This document shows positions 5,172-56,434 of a DNA stretch of 57,053 nt, in pieces. A program made the translations under genes and the position numbers. The stretch's first letter is position 1. Each line of letters opens with the position of its first letter. The DNA lies in assembly GCF_014283215.1 (NCBI RefSeq), contig NZ_JACOMF010000032.1, positions 1-57,053 on the forward strand, given 5' to 3'. Under the pieces are notes generated by a model that worked only from the letters and a program-made list of their open reading frames with translations, did no database searches and had not been told where the DNA came from. Source of the DNA: Siccirubricoccus deserti (GTDB taxonomy: Bacteria; Pseudomonadota; Alphaproteobacteria; Acetobacterales; Acetobacteraceae).

Positions 5172-5245
5172 TGGCTGGGGGACCTGGATTCGAACCAAGA
5201 CTGCCCGAGTCAGAGTCGGGAGTTCTACCGTTAAACTATCCCCCA
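5172..5245 (-). tRNA. tRNA-Gln (CTG anticodon)
   Basis: On the minus strand a 74-base cloverleaf: acceptor stem TGGGGGA/TCCCCCA, D-arm with AGTTTAACGGTAGAACT, anticodon loop ACTCTGACT giving CTG, T-arm with GGTTCGAATCC, and an encoded GCCA end. Gln is supported by the anticodon. It stands alone upstream of, and divergent from, ppx. Confidence 0.95.
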
Positions 5246-26398: not shown

Positions 26399-27352
26399 AT
26401 GACGCAACCATCGGCCGCTCCATTCGCCATCCTCCTGGCCGGCCCGACCGCCAGCGGAAAGTCGGCCCTGGCCCTGGCGCTGGCCGAGCGGTTCGGCGGC
26501 ACCATCATCAATGCGGATTCGATGCAGCTCTACCGCGAGCTGCGGGTGCTGACCGCCCGGCCTACCGCGGAGGAGGAGGCGCGCGTGCCGCATCGCCTTT
26601 ATGGAGTACGTCCGGCGGCGGAAGCGGCCAGCGTCGCATGGTGGCGGGAGCAGGCGCTGGCGGCGATGGCGGAGGCGTCGCTGCCGATCCTTTGCGGCGG
26701 CACCGGCCTCTATTTCGCGGCGCTGACCGAGGGGCTCTCCGCCATCCCGCCGGTGCCGCCAGCGGCGCGGGAAGAAGCGCGGGCGCTGTTGGCCGAGTTC
26801 GGTGCTCCGGCGCTGCATGCGCGACTGGATGCCGAGACCGCAGCGACGCTTCGTCCCGGCGACAGCCAGCGCATCGCACGAGCCTATGAGGTGCTGCGCG
26901 GCACCGGCCGCGGCCTGGCGGAATGGCAGCGGGAGGCGGCGCATACCGGCCCGGCCCCCTGGCGTTTCGCCGCCCTCCGGCTGGACCCGCCGCGGGAGGC
27001 GCTGCGGGCCGCCATCGCCGCCCGCTTCGATGCCATGCTGGAAGCCGGCGCGCTGGAGGAGGTGAGGGGGCTGGTGGCCCAGGGGCTCGACCCCGCCCTG
27101 CCGGCGATGCGGGCGCATGGGGTGCCGGAGCTGGCGGCCTATCTCGCTGGCCGGATGCCGCTGGCGGCGGCACGGGAGCGGGCGGTGCTGAACACCGGCC
27201 AGTACACCAAGCGGCAGGCGACCTGGTTTCGCCACCATCTTCTGGCTGCCGTGCCCGACACGCATATCATCCATGCGCGTATCGAGGGCAACGCGCAATT
27301 TCAGGAAAGCAGAATCGCGGAAATCTTGGCATTTATTGAACAGCGGCGTTGA
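26399..27352 (+). CDS. miaA: tRNA dimethylallyltransferase
   Basis: A 317-residue enzyme that prenylates A37 of tRNAs reading U-starting codons. The P-loop is GPTASGKSAL at residues 15-24, followed by the substrate-binding INADSMQLYRELRVLTARPT and later CGGTGLYFAALTEG, DSQRIARAYEVL and the tRNA-binding YTKRQATWFRH. It is divergent from serB and followed by the ilv operon after 86 bases. Confidence 0.95.
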   Translation: MTQPSAAPFAILLAGPTASGKSALALALAERFGGTIINADSMQLYRELRVLTARPTAEEEARVPHRLYGVRPAAEAASVAWWREQALAAMAEASLPILCGGTGLYFAALTEGLSAIPPVPPAAREEARALLAEFGAPALHARLDAETAATLRPGDSQRIARAYEVLRGTGRGLAEWQREAAHTGPAPWRFAALRLDPPREALRAAIAARFDAMLEAGALEEVRGLVAQGLDPALPAMRAHGVPELAAYLAGRMPLAAARERAVLNTGQYTKRQATWFRHHLLAAVPDTHIIHARIEGNAQFQESRIAEILAFIEQRR

Positions 27353-27386
27353 CGCGCCGCAGCAAGGGGGCTAACGCTCCCCGGTC

Positions 27387-27416
27387 GCCGTGCCCTGGGC
27401 TGAGACCCGGCACGGC
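27387..27416 (+). promoter_or_regulatory. Hairpin in the ilvB leader / miaA terminator
   Basis: Perfect 8-bp stem GCCGTGCC / GGCACGGC with inner CTGGG/CCC pairing and a CTGAGA apex, between the miaA stop and the ilvB start. No T-tract and no Ile/Val/Leu-rich leader peptide could be found, so attenuation is not supported; it may end miaA transcription. Confidence 0.45.
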
Positions 27417-27438
27417 GCCTGGTATCAAGGAAGCCGCC

Positions 27439-29232
27439 ATGTCCGCCACCGCCCAGACCACGACCGAAGCTCGCACCATGAATGGTGCGGAAATCGTCCT
27501 GCAGGCGCTGAAGGACAATGGCGTCGAGGTCATCTTCGGCTACCCGGGCGGCGCGGTATTGCCGCTCTACGACGCGCTGTTCCAGCAGAATGCCATCCGC
27601 CACATCCTGGTGCGGCATGAGCAGGCGGCGGTGCATGCCGCGGAGGGCTACGCCCGCTCCACCGGCAAGGTGGGGGTGGTGCTGGTGACCTCCGGCCCCG
27701 GAGCGACCAACGCCGTCACCGGCCTGGTCGATGCGTTGATGGACAGCATCCCGGTGATCTGCCTGACCGGCCAGGTGCCGACCCACCTGATCGGCAATGA
27801 CGCCTTCCAGGAGGCCGACACCACCGGCATCACACGCCCAGCGACCAAGCACAACTACCTGGTCAAGGACATCAACAAGCTGGCCGGCGTGGTGCATGAG
27901 GCCTTCTACGTGGCGAAATCCGGCCGCCCCGGCCCGGTGGTGATCGACCTGCCGAAGGACATCCTGATCGGCAAGGGCCCCTACACCGAGGCGCCGCAGA
28001 CCGAGCACCGCAGCTACCGACCGGTGACCGAGCCCGATCCGGCGCAGATCCAGGCCGCGGTGCAGCTGCTGAAGCGGGCGAAGCGGCCGATCGTCTATGC
28101 CGGCGGCGGGGTGATCAATGCCGGGCCGGAGGCCTCGCGCCTGCTGACCGAATTCGTCCGCATGGCCGGCATGCCCTGCACCAACACGCTGATGGGCCTA
28201 GGCGCCTATCCGTCCAGCGACCCGCAGTTCCTCGGCATGCTCGGGATGCACGGGACCTATGAAGCCAATCTGGCCATGCATGGCTGCGATGTGATGCTCA
28301 ACATCGGCGCCCGCTTCGACGATCGGGTGACCGGGCGGCTGAACGCCTTCTCGCCGGCCTCGAAGAAGATCCACGCCGACATCGATCCCTCCTCCATCAA
28401 CAAGAACGTCAAGGTGGACGTGGCGGTGGTCGGCGATGCGGCGCGGGTGCTGGCGGCGCTGCTCGAGGCGTGGAAGGCCGATGACGCGGTGCAGGACCGC
28501 GCGGCGATCGCCGAATGGTGGCGGCAGATCGATGCCTGGCGCGGCACGGACTGCCTGCAGTACCGCCAGGAAGGCAGCATCATCAAGCCGCAGCACGCGG
28601 TGCGCCGGCTGTACGAGATCACCCGCGAACTGGGGCGGGAAACCTTCATCACCACCGAAGTCGGCCAGCACCAGATGTGGGCGGCGCAGTATTTCGGCTT
28701 CGAGAAGCCGAACCGCTGGATGACCTCGGGCGGGCTCGGCACCATGGGCTACGGCCTGCCGGCGGCGATGGGGGTGCAGATCGGCCATCCGGATGCGCTG
28801 GTCATCGACATCGCCGGCGAGGCGAGCATCCTGATGAACATCCAGGAGATGGGCACGCTCGCGCAGTACCGACTCCCTGTGAAAGTGTTCATCCTGAACA
28901 ACGAATACATGGGCATGGTGCGGCAGTGGCAGGAGCTGCTGCACGGCAGCCGCTATTCGGAAAGCTACAGCGCCTCGCTGCCGGATTTCGTCAAGCTGGC
29001 CGAAAGCTTCCACGCCCATGGCATCCGCGTGACCCATGCCGACCAGCTCGATGCCGGCATCCGCGAGATGCTGGCGCATCCGGGCCCGGTGATCGCCGAT
29101 ATCGCGGTGGCGAAGGATGAGAATTGCTTCCCGATGATCCCTTCCGGCGCCGCCCATAACGAGATGATCCTGGCGGCCGGCCAGCAGGGCGGGGTCGCCG
29201 GGGTGACGGATGAGGGGAAGGTACTGGTCTAG
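27439..29232 (+). CDS. ilvB: Acetolactate synthase large subunit
   Basis: A 597-residue ThDP-dependent enzyme catalysing the first common step of valine, leucine and isoleucine synthesis. The catalytic Glu is in VRHEQAAVHAAEGYARSTG, FAD-domain signatures follow, and the ThDP/Mg motif is IAGEASILMNIQEMGTL, where the usual GDGS reads GEAS, a common alphaproteobacterial form. The C-terminal VRQWQELLHGSRYSES is standard. Start 27439 is chosen for the conserved MNGAEIVLQALKDNGV shortly after; upstream in-frame codons are not conserved. It heads ilvB-ilvN-ilvC. Confidence 0.96.
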   Translation: MSATAQTTTEARTMNGAEIVLQALKDNGVEVIFGYPGGAVLPLYDALFQQNAIRHILVRHEQAAVHAAEGYARSTGKVGVVLVTSGPGATNAVTGLVDALMDSIPVICLTGQVPTHLIGNDAFQEADTTGITRPATKHNYLVKDINKLAGVVHEAFYVAKSGRPGPVVIDLPKDILIGKGPYTEAPQTEHRSYRPVTEPDPAQIQAAVQLLKRAKRPIVYAGGGVINAGPEASRLLTEFVRMAGMPCTNTLMGLGAYPSSDPQFLGMLGMHGTYEANLAMHGCDVMLNIGARFDDRVTGRLNAFSPASKKIHADIDPSSINKNVKVDVAVVGDAARVLAALLEAWKADDAVQDRAAIAEWWRQIDAWRGTDCLQYRQEGSIIKPQHAVRRLYEITRELGRETFITTEVGQHQMWAAQYFGFEKPNRWMTSGGLGTMGYGLPAAMGVQIGHPDALVIDIAGEASILMNIQEMGTLAQYRLPVKVFILNNEYMGMVRQWQELLHGSRYSESYSASLPDFVKLAESFHAHGIRVTHADQLDAGIREMLAHPGPVIADIAVAKDENCFPMIPSGAAHNEMILAAGQQGGVAGVTDEGKVLV

Positions 29233-29324
29233 CGCGTCACCGCCGCCCCGGCCCCCTTGCTTCCGGTGAGGGGGTGGACTCGTGCCGCAGCTTCCCCTAC
29301 CCGACGCCTGATCGAAGAACCCAC

Positions 29325-29849
29325 ATGCCCGACGCATCCGACCCCACCTTCCGCAACGCGACCATCGCCGTGCTCGTCGAGAACGAAGCGGGCATATTGG
29401 CGCGCGTCGTCGGTCTGTTCTCCGGCCGCGGCTACAACATCGAGAGCCTGACCGTGGCGCCGGTGGATGCTGAGCGGCGGCTCTCGCGCATCACCATCGT
29501 GACCTCCGGCACCGACATGGTGATCGAGCAGATCAAGGCGCAGCTCGATCGGCTGGTGCCGGTGCACAAGGTGAGCGACCTGACCGTGGAAGGCCCGCAC
29601 TTGGCACGCGAGATGATGCTCATCAAGGTTGTGGGACGCGGCGAGCAGCGGATGGAAGCGCTGCGCCTCGCGGATGCCTTCCGCGCCCGGGTGGTGGATG
29701 CGACCACCGGGAGCTTCGTCTTCGAGATGACGGGGGCGGGCGACAAGCTCGATGCCTTCATCGAGCTGATGCGGCCGATCGGGCTGGCGGAAGTGTCCCG
29801 CACCGGTGTCGTCGCCATCGCGCGCGGCGCGCGCAGCCTGCAATCCTGA
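29325..29849 (+). CDS. ilvN: Acetolactate synthase small (regulatory) subunit
   Basis: A 174-residue regulatory subunit with an N-terminal ACT domain (VLVENEAGILARVVGLFSGR, residues 15-34) and the C-terminal domain with AREMMLIKVV and RPIGLAEVSRTGVVAIARG. It activates IlvB and confers branched-chain amino acid feedback inhibition. It is 92 bases after ilvB and 29 before ilvC. It equals IlvH/IlvN of other species; symbol usage varies. Confidence 0.95.
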   Translation: MPDASDPTFRNATIAVLVENEAGILARVVGLFSGRGYNIESLTVAPVDAERRLSRITIVTSGTDMVIEQIKAQLDRLVPVHKVSDLTVEGPHLAREMMLIKVVGRGEQRMEALRLADAFRARVVDATTGSFVFEMTGAGDKLDAFIELMRPIGLAEVSRTGVVAIARGARSLQS

Positions 29850-29863
29850 GCCAACCCGAGTAG

Positions 29864-30895
<1,032 letters not shown>

Positions 30896-33293: not shown

Positions 33294-34262
33294 TCAGCGG
33301 GCGAGCTCGGCATTCACCATGAAGGCGGCATCGCGCCTTCCGTCGAGCACGTCCACGATGTTCTGCGCCGCCTGCCGCGCCATGCGGGCGAGGCCTTCCT
33401 CGGTGCTGGCTGCATTATGCGGGCTGACAACGAGGTTGGGCAGCTTGAACAGCGGGTTGTCGGGGCTGGAGGGCTCCACCTCCAGCACGTCCAGCCCGGC
33501 GCCGTGCAGCCGTCCGCCGCGCAGCGCTGCCGCCAGCGCATCCTGGGCGACCAGCGGCCCGCGCGCGGTGTTCACCAGGATGGCGCCCGGCTTCAGCGCG
33601 GCGAAGGCGGCCGCGTCCAGCAGGTGATGCGTCGCCGGCGAGAGCGGGCAATGCAGGGTCACCACATCCGCCTCGGCCAATCCTTCATGTAGGTTGCGGA
33701 CCGGGGTGAAGCCATCGGCGGCGATGCGGGCGGGATGGAAGCCAGGGTCCATCACCATCACCTTCATCTGGAAGGCGCGGCAGTAGCTCGCCACCCGGCT
33801 GCCGATGCGGCCATAGCCCACCACCAGAACGCTGCGCCCCGCCAGGTCGACCATTCCCGGCCCCTGGGGGAACCACCAGCCGCCCTGCTTCACATGCCGG
33901 TCGGCATCGATCGCGCGGCGCGCCACCGCCAGCATCAGCATCATCGCGTGTTCGGCCACGCTCAGGTCATTGGCGCCATTCACCACCATCACCGGAATGT
34001 CGCGCGCGGTGCAGGCAGGGATGTCCACCGTGTCGAAGCCGACGCCGTAGCGCGAGACCACCTTCAGCCGCGGCGCCACCGCCAGCGCCGCCTCATCCAC
34101 CCGTTCCAGCCAGCACAGCACCGCATCGGCCGAGGAGAGGTGCTGGTGGAATTCCGCCACTGGCGGGTCGTGCAGCGCAACGATGTCGAGGTCCTCCCGC
34201 TCGTTCAGCACGGCCATGCCGGCGGGGTGGAGGGTGCGGCAGAGCAGGATGCGGTGCGGCAT
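33294..34262 (-). CDS. NAD-dependent D-2-hydroxyacid dehydrogenase
   Basis: A 322-residue D-isomer-specific 2-hydroxyacid dehydrogenase. The NAD motif is VVGYGRIGSRVASYC near residue 148, the catalytic Arg is in LVNTARGPLV, the Glu lies in VLEVEPSSPDNP and the His in SPHNAASTEEG. The substrate could be glyoxylate, hydroxypyruvate or a phosphoglycerate-like acid, but it is too short for the long SerA types. The start at 34262 has GGGAGA nine bases before it. It is convergent with the small cupin (8-base gap) and divergent from the leuA leader. Confidence 0.88.
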   Translation of the reverse strand: MPHRILLCRTLHPAGMAVLNEREDLDIVALHDPPVAEFHQHLSSADAVLCWLERVDEAALAVAPRLKVVSRYGVGFDTVDIPACTARDIPVMVVNGANDLSVAEHAMMLMLAVARRAIDADRHVKQGGWWFPQGPGMVDLAGRSVLVVGYGRIGSRVASYCRAFQMKVMVMDPGFHPARIAADGFTPVRNLHEGLAEADVVTLHCPLSPATHHLLDAAAFAALKPGAILVNTARGPLVAQDALAAALRGGRLHGAGLDVLEVEPSSPDNPLFKLPNLVVSPHNAASTEEGLARMARQAAQNIVDVLDGRRDAAFMVNAELAR

Positions 34263-34334
34263 GGCGTCGGTCTCCCTGGGGTTTTGCCGCATGGTGAAAC
34301 CTGCGGTGGGGCGGCGCCAGGGGCATCTCGGCGC

Positions 34335-34363
34335 TTGCCCGGCCGCCGAGGCCCGGCTAGGGT
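34335..34363 (+). promoter_or_regulatory. Candidate leuA promoter
   Basis: TTGCCC, 17 bases, TAGGGT. Initiation would fall near 34370, only about four bases before the leader-peptide ATG, so the leader would be nearly leaderless, as reported for some alphaproteobacterial attenuator peptides. Confidence 0.4.
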
Positions 34364-34373
34364 GCCAGCCAGG

Positions 34374-34484
34374 ATGACCCTGAGCGCGCCCCTGTCCGGT
34401 CCTGATCGCGGCCTCGCCGCCGGTCCCGGCGCGCGCCTGCCCATCGGCCTCCTTCTCCTTCGACTTAGCCGCCCCTGGGCGTGA
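34374..34484 (+). CDS. leuL: Leucine leader peptide of leuA
   Basis: A 36-residue frame ending PIGLLLLRLSRPWA. Codons 26-31 are CTC CTT CTC CTT CGA CTT, so five of six are leucine and three use CTT, which is rare in this GC-rich genome. It ends 87 bases before leuA. The position, the leucine run and the alternating stem-loops that begin in its last codons are the classical arrangement of transcription attenuation by leucyl-tRNA supply. No strong ribosome binding site is present, consistent with near-leaderless translation. Confidence 0.8.
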   Translation: MTLSAPLSGPDRGLAAGPGARLPIGLLLLRLSRPWA

Positions 34485-34551
34485 CGTCCGGCTGACCGGC
34501 CGGCCACCGCTCAGGGGGACCTGAGGCGTCTCGCGCGCATCCTCGGCTCAG
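34472..34551 (+). promoter_or_regulatory. leuA attenuator (alternating stem-loops)
   Basis: Segment A CCCCTGGGC (34472-34480, in the leader's last codons) pairs with B GCTCAGGGG (34509-34517). B can instead form CTCAGG-GGGA-CCTGAG with C (34520-34525). C can pair with D CTCAG (34547-34551). A ribosome stalled on the leucine codons would cover A, favour B:C and prevent C:D. C:D is short and has no T-tract, so it may work by another mechanism. Confidence 0.6.
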
Positions 34552-34571
34552 TCACACAAGGACCGTCACCC

Positions 34572-36164
34572 ATGGCCATCACCCATCCCAGCTTCGGCAC
34601 GCTGGACGACAACCGCATCATCTTCTTCGACACCACCCTGCGCGACGGCGAGCAATCGCCGGGCTTCTCGATGAACATCGAGGAGAAGCTGCGCATGGCC
34701 GAGGCGCTGACCGACCTCGGCGTCGACGTCATCGAAGCCGGCTTCGCCATTGCCTCCCCCGGTGATTTCGAGAGCGTGCAGGAGATCGCCAAGCGCTTCG
34801 CCAAGGACGGGCCGGTCATCGCCAGCCTGTCGCGCGCCGCTGCGGCCGACATCCTGCGCTCGGCCGAGGCGCTGAAGCCGGCCGCGCGCAAGCGGATCCA
34901 CATCGTCCTGGCGACCTCCGACCTGCACATGCGGGTCAAGCTGCGGATGTCGCGCGAGGAGGTGCTGGAGGCAGTGACCGGCAGCGTCACCCTGGGCCGT
35001 CAGCACAGCGACGACGTTGAGTGGAGCGCCGAGGACGGCAGCCGCAGCGATCCGGACTTCCTCTGCCGCTGTGTCGAGGCGGCGATCAAGGCCGGCGCCA
35101 CCACCATCAACATCCCCGACACCGTCGGCTATTCGATGCCGGAGGATATGGAGCGGATCTTCACCGACCTGCGCAGCCGCGTCCCCGGGGCCGACACTGT
35201 CATCTTCTCGGCGCATAACCACAACGACCTGGGCATGGCGGTGGCCAACACCATCGCCGCCATCCGCGGCGGCGCCCGGCAGATCGAGAGCACGATCAAC
35301 GGCATCGGCGAGCGGGCGGGCAATGCCAGCCTGGAAGAGGTGGCGATGGCGCTGCGTACGCGGCGCGACGTGCTGCCCTTCGCCAACACCATCCAGACGC
35401 CGAAGATCCTGAGGACCAGCAAGCTGCTGGCCACCATCACCGGCTTCGACGTGCAGCCGAACAAGGCGATCGTCGGCCGCAACGCCTTCGCGCATGAAAG
35501 CGGCATCCACCAGGACGGCGTGCTGAAGGACGCCTCCACCTACGAAATCATGACGCCGGAGAGCGTCGGCTGGAGCAACAGCAGCCTGGTGCTGGGCAAG
35601 CACTCCGGCCGCGCTGCCTTCCGCGACAAGCTCAGGTCGCTGGGTTATGGCGAGATCGGCGACAACCAGCTGAACGACGCCTTCCGCCGCTTCAAGGACC
35701 TCGCCGACCGCAAGAAGGTGGTCTACGACGAGGATGTCGCCGCGCTGGTCGACGATGAGGTGGTCCGTGGCCACGACCGGGTGAAGCTGGTTGGCCTGAC
35801 CGTCGCCACCGGCCTCGGCGTCCGCCCGATGGCGACCCTGGCGCTGGAGGTGGATGGCGAGCGGCGCGACGGCATGGCGACCGGCGATGGCGCGGTCGAC
35901 GCCACCTTCATCGCCATCCGCAATGCCTTCCCGCACGATGTCGCGCTGAAGCTCTTCGCGGTGCAGAGCGTGACCGGAGGCACCGATGCGCAGGCACGGG
36001 TGACGGTGCGGCTGGAGGAAGGCGGCAAGCTGGTGGACGGGCAGGGCGCCGACACCGACACCATCGTCGCTGCCGCCCGCGCCTATGTGCATGCGCTGAA
36101 CAAGCTGCTGGTGAAGCGCGAGCGCACCGCGCCAGCGGAGTTCCGCGCAACGGCTTCGGCCTGA
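34572..36164 (+). CDS. leuA: 2-isopropylmalate synthase
   Basis: A 530-residue enzyme condensing acetyl-CoA with 2-ketoisovalerate, the committed step to leucine. The TIM barrel starts with FFDTTLRDGEQSPGFSMN, the metal-binding HxH is in SAHNHNDLGMA, and NAFAHESGIHQDGVLK marks the subdomain. The C-terminal regulatory domain (residues 390-510) includes EVDGERRDGMATGDGAVDA and should mediate leucine feedback inhibition. The gene is separated from leuCDB by 17 kb. Regulation by the upstream leader peptide is strongly suggested. Confidence 0.96.
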   Translation: MAITHPSFGTLDDNRIIFFDTTLRDGEQSPGFSMNIEEKLRMAEALTDLGVDVIEAGFAIASPGDFESVQEIAKRFAKDGPVIASLSRAAAADILRSAEALKPAARKRIHIVLATSDLHMRVKLRMSREEVLEAVTGSVTLGRQHSDDVEWSAEDGSRSDPDFLCRCVEAAIKAGATTINIPDTVGYSMPEDMERIFTDLRSRVPGADTVIFSAHNHNDLGMAVANTIAAIRGGARQIESTINGIGERAGNASLEEVAMALRTRRDVLPFANTIQTPKILRTSKLLATITGFDVQPNKAIVGRNAFAHESGIHQDGVLKDASTYEIMTPESVGWSNSSLVLGKHSGRAAFRDKLRSLGYGEIGDNQLNDAFRRFKDLADRKKVVYDEDVAALVDDEVVRGHDRVKLVGLTVATGLGVRPMATLALEVDGERRDGMATGDGAVDATFIAIRNAFPHDVALKLFAVQSVTGGTDAQARVTVRLEEGGKLVDGQGADTDTIVAAARAYVHALNKLLVKRERTAPAEFRATASA

Positions 36165-47502: not shown

Positions 47503-48140
47503 CCCTGCGCCCGGGCGAGCACTTCGGCCACCACGGCCTCGAACATCGCCGCCGTCAGCCGCCGGGTCGAAGTGTTGTAGCGGCTGACATGATAGCTGTC
47601 GGCCAGCAGCAGTCCGCCCGGCAGCGCATGCATGGCGCCATGGGCGAAGGCGATACGGGAGGGCTTCAGCCCCAGCGCCCGCAGCAGCGCCGCATGCGCC
47701 AGCACGCCGAGCGCCAGCACCACCCGAAGATTCGGCATCGTCCGCAGCTCGCCGGCGAGGAAGCCGTTGCAGGCCCTGATCTCCGCCGTCTCCGGCAGAT
47801 TGGCCGGGGGAACGCAGCGCACCGCATTGGTCACCCGGCAGCCGGTCAGCGCCATGCCGTCATCCGGCCGTTCCTGGTACTCGCCGGTTGCCAACCCGAA
47901 GCGCAGCAGCGTGGCGTAGAGCAGCTTGCCCGCATGGTCGCCGGTGAAGGGGCGGCCGGTGCGGTTGGCGCCGCGCTGGCCCGGTGCCATGCCGAGCACC
48001 AGGATTGGCGCTTCGCGCGGGCCCCAACTCGGCACCGGCGCATTATGCCAGTCCGGGAAGGCGGCACGGTTCGCCATGCGCAGAGCCGCCAGCCGGGGGC
48101 AGAGCGGGCAATCTCGGCCCGGCTCGGCCGCCGCGCTCAC
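47499..48140 (-). CDS. Uracil-DNA glycosylase, family 5 (UdgB-like)
   Basis: A 213-residue iron-sulfur uracil-DNA glycosylase. The active-site motif A is GMAPGQRGANRTGRPFTGD, where Ala rather than a polar residue follows GM as in family 5. The second motif is HVSRYNTSTRRLT. Cysteines in CPLCPRL and the pair in VTNAVRC and IRACNGF should bind a 4Fe-4S cluster. It removes uracil and related lesions. Its start overlaps the end of the upstream NYN gene by four bases. Confidence 0.85.
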   Translation of the reverse strand: MSAAAEPGRDCPLCPRLAALRMANRAAFPDWHNAPVPSWGPREAPILVLGMAPGQRGANRTGRPFTGDHAGKLLYATLLRFGLATGEYQERPDDGMALTGCRVTNAVRCVPPANLPETAEIRACNGFLAGELRTMPNLRVVLALGVLAHAALLRALGLKPSRIAFAHGAMHALPGGLLLADSYHVSRYNTSTRRLTAAMFEAVVAEVLARAQG

Positions 48141-56357: not shown

Positions 56358-56434
56358 GCGCCCGTAGCTCAGCTGGATAGAGCACCAGACTACGAATCTG
56401 GGGGTCAGGAGTTCGAATCTCTTCGGGCGCGCCA
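56358..56434 (+). tRNA. tRNA-Arg (ACG anticodon)
   Basis: A 77-base cloverleaf: acceptor GCGCCCG/CGGGCGC, D-arm GCTCAGCTGGATAGAGC, anticodon stem CCAGA/TCTGG with loop CTACGAA giving ACG (read as ICG after deamination), T-loop TTCGAAT and an encoded GCCA end. It lies 81 bases after leuB with a terminator downstream. Confidence 0.96.

Follow-up and report, generated by a model that had tools for sequence, protein, structure and literature searches.

The leuA gene of Siccirubricoccus deserti is preceded by a short open reading frame ending in a run of leucine codons, which raises the question of how leucine might be sensed here and at which step the signal would reach leuA. In enteric bacteria, leader-peptide control of leucine synthesis works by intrinsic termination. 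The locus was analyzed within a window of 57,053 nucleotides, the whole stretch of DNA under study, in which the leader region lies between leuA and a divergent D-2-hydroxyacid dehydrogenase-like gene. Coordinates are collected in Table 1.

Table 1. Features of the leuA leader region and its neighborhood, in positions of the window
Feature	Position	Strand	Remarks
ilvB-type acetolactate synthase gene	27349-29232		few kb before leuA; NF006581 and TIGR00118 over cut-off
D-2-hydroxyacid dehydrogenase-like gene	33294-34292	divergent from leuA	matches below cut-offs
Promoter-like element	34335-34363	+	TTGCCC 34335-34340, 17-nt spacer, TAGGGT 34358-34363
Leader ORF, 36 aa	34374-34484	+	MTLSAPLSGPDRGLAAGPGARLPIGLLLLRLSRPWA; stop TGA 34482-34484; C-terminal part conserved 5' of leuA
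Regulatory codons CTC CTT CTC CTT CGA CTT	34449-34466	+	within leader ORF
Segment X, CGACTTAGCCG	34461-34471	+	holds last regulatory Leu codon; pairs with X' (permutation test)
Segment 2 (A of the first-pass annotation), CCCCTGGGCG	34472-34481	+	10-bp helix with 34508-34517, covariation
Segment 3 (formerly B), CGCTCAGGGG	34508-34517	+	covariation; inside R1 match 34456-34521 (E 6.1e-12)
Segment 4 (formerly C), CCTGAG	34520-34525	+	GGGA-loop hairpin with CTCAGG 34510-34515
Segment X', CGGCTCAGTC	34544-34553	+	complementary to X, one mismatch; 4 nt 5' of Shine-Dalgarno site
leuA Shine-Dalgarno site, AAGGA	34558-34562	+	complementary to UCCUU of Leu codons 34456-34460
leuA, 2-isopropylmalate synthase, 530 aa	34572-36164	+	NF002087 (810.9 bits) and TIGR00973 (661.9 bits), both over cut-off

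The leader frame ends in PIGLLLLRLSRPWA, and its predicted peptide in LLLLRLSRPWA. Its terminal leucine run had been described in the first-pass annotation and was confirmed. A leucine-rich leader was seen in most of 110 upstream leuA regions from genus, family, and genome-contigs searches, usually ending in RLxRP or RLxRPWA approximately 70-150 nt 5' of leuA. Codons were counted in 197 loci anchored on the hairpin described below, after removal of element-less, duplicate, and mis-anchored loci; one locus, L034, offered 4 nt of upstream DNA only. Codon -3 was Leu in all 197 loci (CTT in 191) and codon -5 was Leu in 188. The anchoring itself drew in part on CTT-like bases and on the hairpin, which to some extent presets the count at -3 but leaves that at -5 unaffected. 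Codon -4 was Arg in 161 loci and Leu in 35. The earlier remark that CTT is rare here also held: of the 5594 Leu codons in leuA coding stretches from these loci, 172 were CTT, compared with 426 of the 724 at leader positions -8 to -3. For CTT and CTC together, the counts were 1454 of 5594 and 615 of 724, respectively. The leucine run is thus conserved across relatives, and the proposal of a leucine leader peptide ahead of leuA was supported.

The -10 motif of the promoter-like element ends 10 nt ahead of the leader ATG. The annotation had read this element as a promoter giving a near-leaderless RNA. The motif is present, and among 104 family loci, 76 (73%) had a -35/-10 motif scoring at least 8 ahead of an in-frame ATG, compared with 3.4% of shuffled upstream regions, under a scoring scheme written after the pattern had been seen. 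In 72 of these 76 loci, 6-10 nt separated the end of the -10 motif from the ATG. A sigma-70 scan under strict settings yielded no promoter in the window stretch, so that the claim of a near-leaderless RNA has the motif statistics for it and the strict scan against it. The placement of the motif fits a transcript beginning within a few bases of the leader ATG, and a near-leaderless start is predicted. A comparable start is known from the trpL leader (rnTrpL) of Sinorhizobium meliloti, likewise an alphaproteobacterial leader ORF: according to the available text of two reports (PMC7298713, PMC10117765), that RNA begins at the ATG, ends in a transcription terminator, and gives rise to an sRNA. The leuA leader differs in having no visible terminator.

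For the distribution of the element, a 64-position RNA model, R1, was built from the last Leu codons (X) and the hairpin, CGACUUANNNG + CCCCUGAGCG:CGYUCAGGGG. The next match in the genome of the window had an E value of 1.77, i.e. there was no second significant copy. A leuA match was found in 137 family genomes, 70 of which were examined upstream, better matches first and not as a random draw. R1 matched at all 70 leuA loci, including the window and 40 loci fetched after the model had been built. The element at 70 of 70 family loci, together with the promoter-like motifs abutting the leader ATG, is more than chance would give. Of the 80 genome-contigs loci, 51 of which were in the model, 70 were matched on the leuA strand. 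Among 289 genomes sampled across the Alphaproteobacteria, 71 had a match at E ≤ 0.001, one each, and 218 had none. With G184 left out, the 69 non-window matches were fetched, and all 69 lay upstream of an isopropylmalate synthase gene on the same strand. The class and genome-contigs sets overlap (L159 and L104 show the same element, as do L160 and L079), and the class matches are therefore not wholly independent of R1. According to tblastn, leuA followed on the same strand in 68 of the 69, at a median of 46 nt to its extrapolated start and in one case at 373 nt. The remaining match, L167, precedes another type of isopropylmalate synthase. In 299 phylum-wide genomes, 49 with a match were found, all of the same class; the number of out-of-class genomes among the 299 was not stated.

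Several single loci deserve mention. In L161, the element (601-656) lies approximately 373 nt 5' of leuA, far beyond the other class matches. In L171 and L182, the leuA matches had only 26-33% identity, and the other synthase type was found downstream there as well; its best NCBIfam match at these two loci and at L167 was NF002991 (partial ORFs). At these three loci the leader stands before a different synthase type, as if the control device had followed function and not gene lineage. Searched up to E 10, Rfam 15 had no match in positions 34250-34650, and none was found in 10 relatives. At its gathering threshold it listed only two tRNAs in the window, tRNA-Gln and tRNA-Arg. ARAGORN placed these two at 5172-5245 and 56358-56434 and added a tRNA-His at 47910-48004, which is not in the Rfam list.

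The hairpin formed by segments 2 and 3 had been annotated as a 9-bp A:B stem. It was found as a 10-bp helix that is kept across the class and co-varies. In 68 aligned sequences, 96.0% of cells were paired, and the covariation score of 0.200 (shuffled mean, 0.151) was reached in none of 500 shuffles. Sliding the partner by 1-3 columns left at most 56.5% paired, with scores of at most 0.095. Double changes affected 6 pairs and 25 cells, and slid versions came to 6 pairs (at -2) and 23 cells (at -1), so that the percentage paired and the covariation score carry the case for this hairpin. RNAalifold predicted 8 of the 10 pairs unaided. The last Leu codon stands at a fixed distance from the hairpin, whose 5' strand takes in the last bases of the ORF. 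Over its full length, the leader region was not unusually stable on folding (z -0.42), and folding stability was rejected as evidence.

The other annotated stems fared differently. The B:C stem, 6 bp with a GGGA tetraloop, is present in the window and has a limited distribution in relatives, where a 3:4 stem of at least 6 bp was found in 65 of 201 loci. Segment 4 is also complementary to CUUAG of X. The C:D stem was taken as CTGAG (34521-34525) with CTCAG (34547-34551); the window allows it, but it is not kept in relatives. The exact partner occurred before leuA in one of 43 comparable loci, the window itself, and any 5-bp partner in 7 of 43, compared with 11.9 expected from shuffles; the C:D stem was rejected on these counts. 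The annotation had also placed the stalled ribosome over A. The distance from the ribosomal P site to the front edge is about 15 nt. By this geometry, a ribosome halted at any of the first four Leu codons would lie over X and not over A, and a stall on the last CUU alone would reach into A. In six loci of the family to which the window belongs (L206, L212, L213, L217, L221, and L222), segment 4 runs directly into an X'-like stretch (CCCTGAGGCT..), and segments X-2 and 4-X' mirror one another around segment 3.

The region between the hairpin and leuA was then scanned for terminator-like sites (hairpin loops of at most 8 nt). With five T required, such sites were found in 8 of 197 loci (1.6 expected), and with four T allowed in 21 (9.4 in shuffles). 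None was found in the window by the same scan, which did detect the T-run hairpin that forms the terminator of E. coli leuL. Of the 197 loci, 4 had at least five T among the eight bases that follow segment 3, and a T-rich tail followed one of the 65 3:4 stems. An intrinsic terminator was rejected as the read-out in view of the empty window, the 8 of 197 loci, and the working leuL control. This agrees with the earlier reservation that the read-out might not be simple intrinsic termination. In L058 (1839-1904), an AT-rich member of Commensalibacter, eight T directly follow segment 3, and the 2:3 hairpin therefore looks like an intrinsic terminator in that genome.

A pairing absent from the first-pass annotation was found closer to leuA. 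The region 5' of the Shine-Dalgarno site co-varies with the segment of the last Leu codon, CGACUUANNNG. From 160 loci, 126 representatives were retained after element-less, duplicate, and mis-anchored loci had been removed. The mean X:X' duplex energy was -7.80 compared with -6.52 (sd 0.134) for permuted partners, and none of 2000 permutations reached the observed value, in a test that shared ancestry inflates. Resolved by window, the permutation z value was strongest at X (-9.4), ranged from -1.0 to -5.2 in other leader windows, some of which overlap X, and was about +1 in the hairpin loop, where there was no signal. Perfect 6-nt pairing (TANNNG, G-U allowed) was seen in 25 of 126 representatives, compared with 9.3 expected and a maximum of 17 in 1000 permutations. 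Changed X types with matching partners were AGCCG, AGGTG, AGGCG, ATGCG, ACCGG, and ACCCG, some of them at one locus each; AGGTG was matched by CACCTAAG, AGGCG by CGCCTA, ATGCG by GCATAG, ACCGG by CCGG, and ACCCG by CGGGTA. Among 47 strong cases, 30 had the end of X' at 15-29 nt 5' of the ATG. No X:X' signal was obtained for the 31 representatives in which X lacks CGACU (z -1.4), and a 7-nt test found the pairing in 0 of 16 ATCCG and 0 of 7 ACGCG representatives. As judged by these comparisons, the X:X' pairing is not universal: some lineages show it clearly and others weakly, and none was detected where CGACU is absent.

The Leu codons may in addition reach the Shine-Dalgarno site directly. 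In a consensus fold of seven hand-picked relatives, the stretch CGAAGGA at the Shine-Dalgarno site formed pairs with UCCUUCG of the Leu codons, and segment 4 had CUUAG of X as its partner. Four of the five UCCUU:AAGGA pairs formed in 7 of 7 sequences and one in 6 of 7, with no covariation. The consensus fold of 16 other hand-picked sequences contained X:4 and 2:3 and no Shine-Dalgarno pairing. Because the pairs between Leu codons and Shine-Dalgarno site are invariant, they yield no covariation evidence. The leader Leu codons were redrawn from leuA usage in 66 of 106 representatives. Openness of the site rose in 36 and fell in 18, with a mean difference of 0.054 (se 0.015; Wilcoxon p 0.0017), a response that any purine-rich site might share. 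Left-arm swaps between species barely changed the predicted openness (-0.03, se 0.02; 42 representatives). The swapped arms carry the same Leu codons; the swap gave no clear result as a test of occlusion, and the codon redraw was used afterwards. Masking of the ribosome region at the Leu codons opened the site in 41 of 60 loci and closed it in 9, and masking at the stop codon opened it as much (0.466 versus 0.474). Given the invariant pairs, the small swap effect, and the equal effect of stop-codon masking, occlusion of the Shine-Dalgarno site by the Leu codons is no more than plausible in the folding models.

From codon conservation and gene association we infer translation of the leader and stalling on its CUY codons, and on this comparative basis a leucine-sensing, ribosome-mediated leader ahead of leuA is near certain. 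The best explanation of its effect, to which we assign a probability of about 0.55, is translational attenuation of leuA and not intrinsic termination. The output step would be the initiation of leuA translation, for which the odds are likewise slightly better than even and higher than for Rho-dependent termination. The RNA would start within a few bases of the leader ATG. With enough leucine, the ribosome would reach the stop codon and leave the leader, freeing X for pairing with X' or segment 4 and the Leu codons for pairing with the Shine-Dalgarno site; leuA translation would be kept low. Under leucine shortage, the ribosome would stall on CUC/CUU and cover X and the anti-Shine-Dalgarno-like codons. 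Hairpin 2:3 would form ahead of it, the ribosome-binding site would open, and leuA would be made.

A ribosome-sensing leader without a terminator could also act on transcription. In a Rho-dependent attenuation, the ribosome would leave at the stop codon when leucine suffices and Rho would terminate before or early in leuA, and under leucine shortage the stalled ribosome and hairpin 2:3 would prevent this termination. The clear presence of such a leader and the rarity of terminator-like sites speak for it, and Rho has been proposed for terminator-less leader peptides in cys operons (PMC1262725, in the part of the paper available). However, Rho alone leaves the position of X', immediately 5' of the Shine-Dalgarno site, and its covariation with X unexplained, and we regard Rho-dependent attenuation as an unlikely, if serious, competitor of control at leuA translation. 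Classical transcription attenuation, with segments 3:4 as the intrinsic terminator, appears improbable. The leader geometry is classical, the 3:4 stem recurs in the loci counted above, and terminator-like sites exceed shuffles at both stringencies, but T-rich tails and T-tracts after segment 3 are nearly lacking, and the window contains no site although that of leuL was detected.

Two further readings dispense with codon-specific stalling or with the leader ORF as the main element. TnaC is a case of arrest by the amino acid sequence of the nascent peptide itself. The conserved LRLxRP end could in principle stall the ribosome in this way, and the Arg and Leu at -4 and -3, followed by Pro in most loci, would suit it. 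But the position ahead of Pro is variable (R in 119, C in 29, S in 18, G in 14, and other residues in the rest of the 197 loci), and the WA forms run beyond Pro because the in-stem UGA reads UGG in those loci. From both facts the constraint looks like one on codons and RNA and not on the peptide; the third codon positions, conserved as CTT in 191 of 197 loci, point the same way. An arrest peptide ending in RP-stop was rejected on the variable residue, and we give very little credence to peptide arrest in general. A cis-acting RNA site for a protein or small RNA, to which the leader ORF would be secondary, is equally remote. It would account for the CCCC:GGGG end of hairpin 2:3, which is nearly invariant, more than pairing requires, but the Leu at -3 in every anchored locus and the mostly Leu-rich ends are hard to explain without translation.

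Among described systems, the nearest relative in design is, by analogy, the actinobacterial LEU element (Seliverstov et al. 2005, PMC1262725). As presented in the accessible text of that paper, it consists of a leader ORF with a run of Leu codons ahead of leuA, an enclosed hairpin, and a base stem that joins the Leu run to the leuA Shine-Dalgarno site, and the authors describe its structure as a pseudoknot or an alternative hairpin. They favored binding of a regulatory protein, citing mutation data at odds with classical attenuation. A Leu-codon leader ORF ahead of leuA is found here as well, an enclosed hairpin is a further likeness, and a Leu-codon:Shine-Dalgarno base stem may be another. 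In contrast, the present leader belongs to another phylum and has, in some lineages only, a co-varying stem adjacent to the Shine-Dalgarno site on its 5' side. The E. coli leuL shares the leucine leader peptide before leuA, but there a hairpin with a T-run follows, and anything similar was seen in 8 of 197 loci here. A leader ORF rich in codons for the product, as in trpL and leuL, is thus predicted from sequence, and the intrinsic terminator with a T-run is lacking in the window and rare in the other loci; the element should therefore not be filed as a classical attenuator despite its ribosome-mediated working. Within the same bacterial class, uORFC-8-2 before cysS in Rhodobacterales has been described as a uORF attenuator that likewise combines conserved regulatory codons with RNA structure; it differs in gene, codon, and order, and the read-out proposed in the available part of the report is transcriptional read-through (PMC8632094). 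No report of an alphaproteobacterial leuA leader was found in literature listings and abstracts, the text of the main comparative survey of proteobacteria (Vitreschak et al. 2004) not included.

A leucine leader thus recurs across a class, mostly without a recognizable terminator, near a predicted near-leaderless start and on two leuA types. If the read-out is leuA translation, it would offer a testable and genetically simple case of a regulatory codon doubling as a structural strand, and would join the LEU element, whose mechanism stayed open, as a second example. Tentatively, and with somewhat less than even confidence, we suggest that alphaproteobacteria possess a widespread leucine-leader family acting at translation initiation, in which the fixed rare CUU would be the sensor and its segment one strand of the stem closing the leuA ribosome-binding site. 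The family would have arisen independently as a counterpart of LEU and would stand before two leuA types. R1 can be used as a marker, since each fetched non-window match precedes an isopropylmalate synthase gene.

To provide a control for terminators within the same genomes, other biosynthetic loci were scanned for Leu/Ile/Val or trp leaders, and at the stricter threshold none was found in 19 ilvB and 16 trpE loci. A looser scan gave candidate leader ORFs in 4 of the 19 ilvB loci, this genome not being among them, and in 5 of the 16 trpE loci. Within positions 27349-30895 of the window, the ORFs that follow the ilvB-type gene look by eye like ilvH and ilvC.
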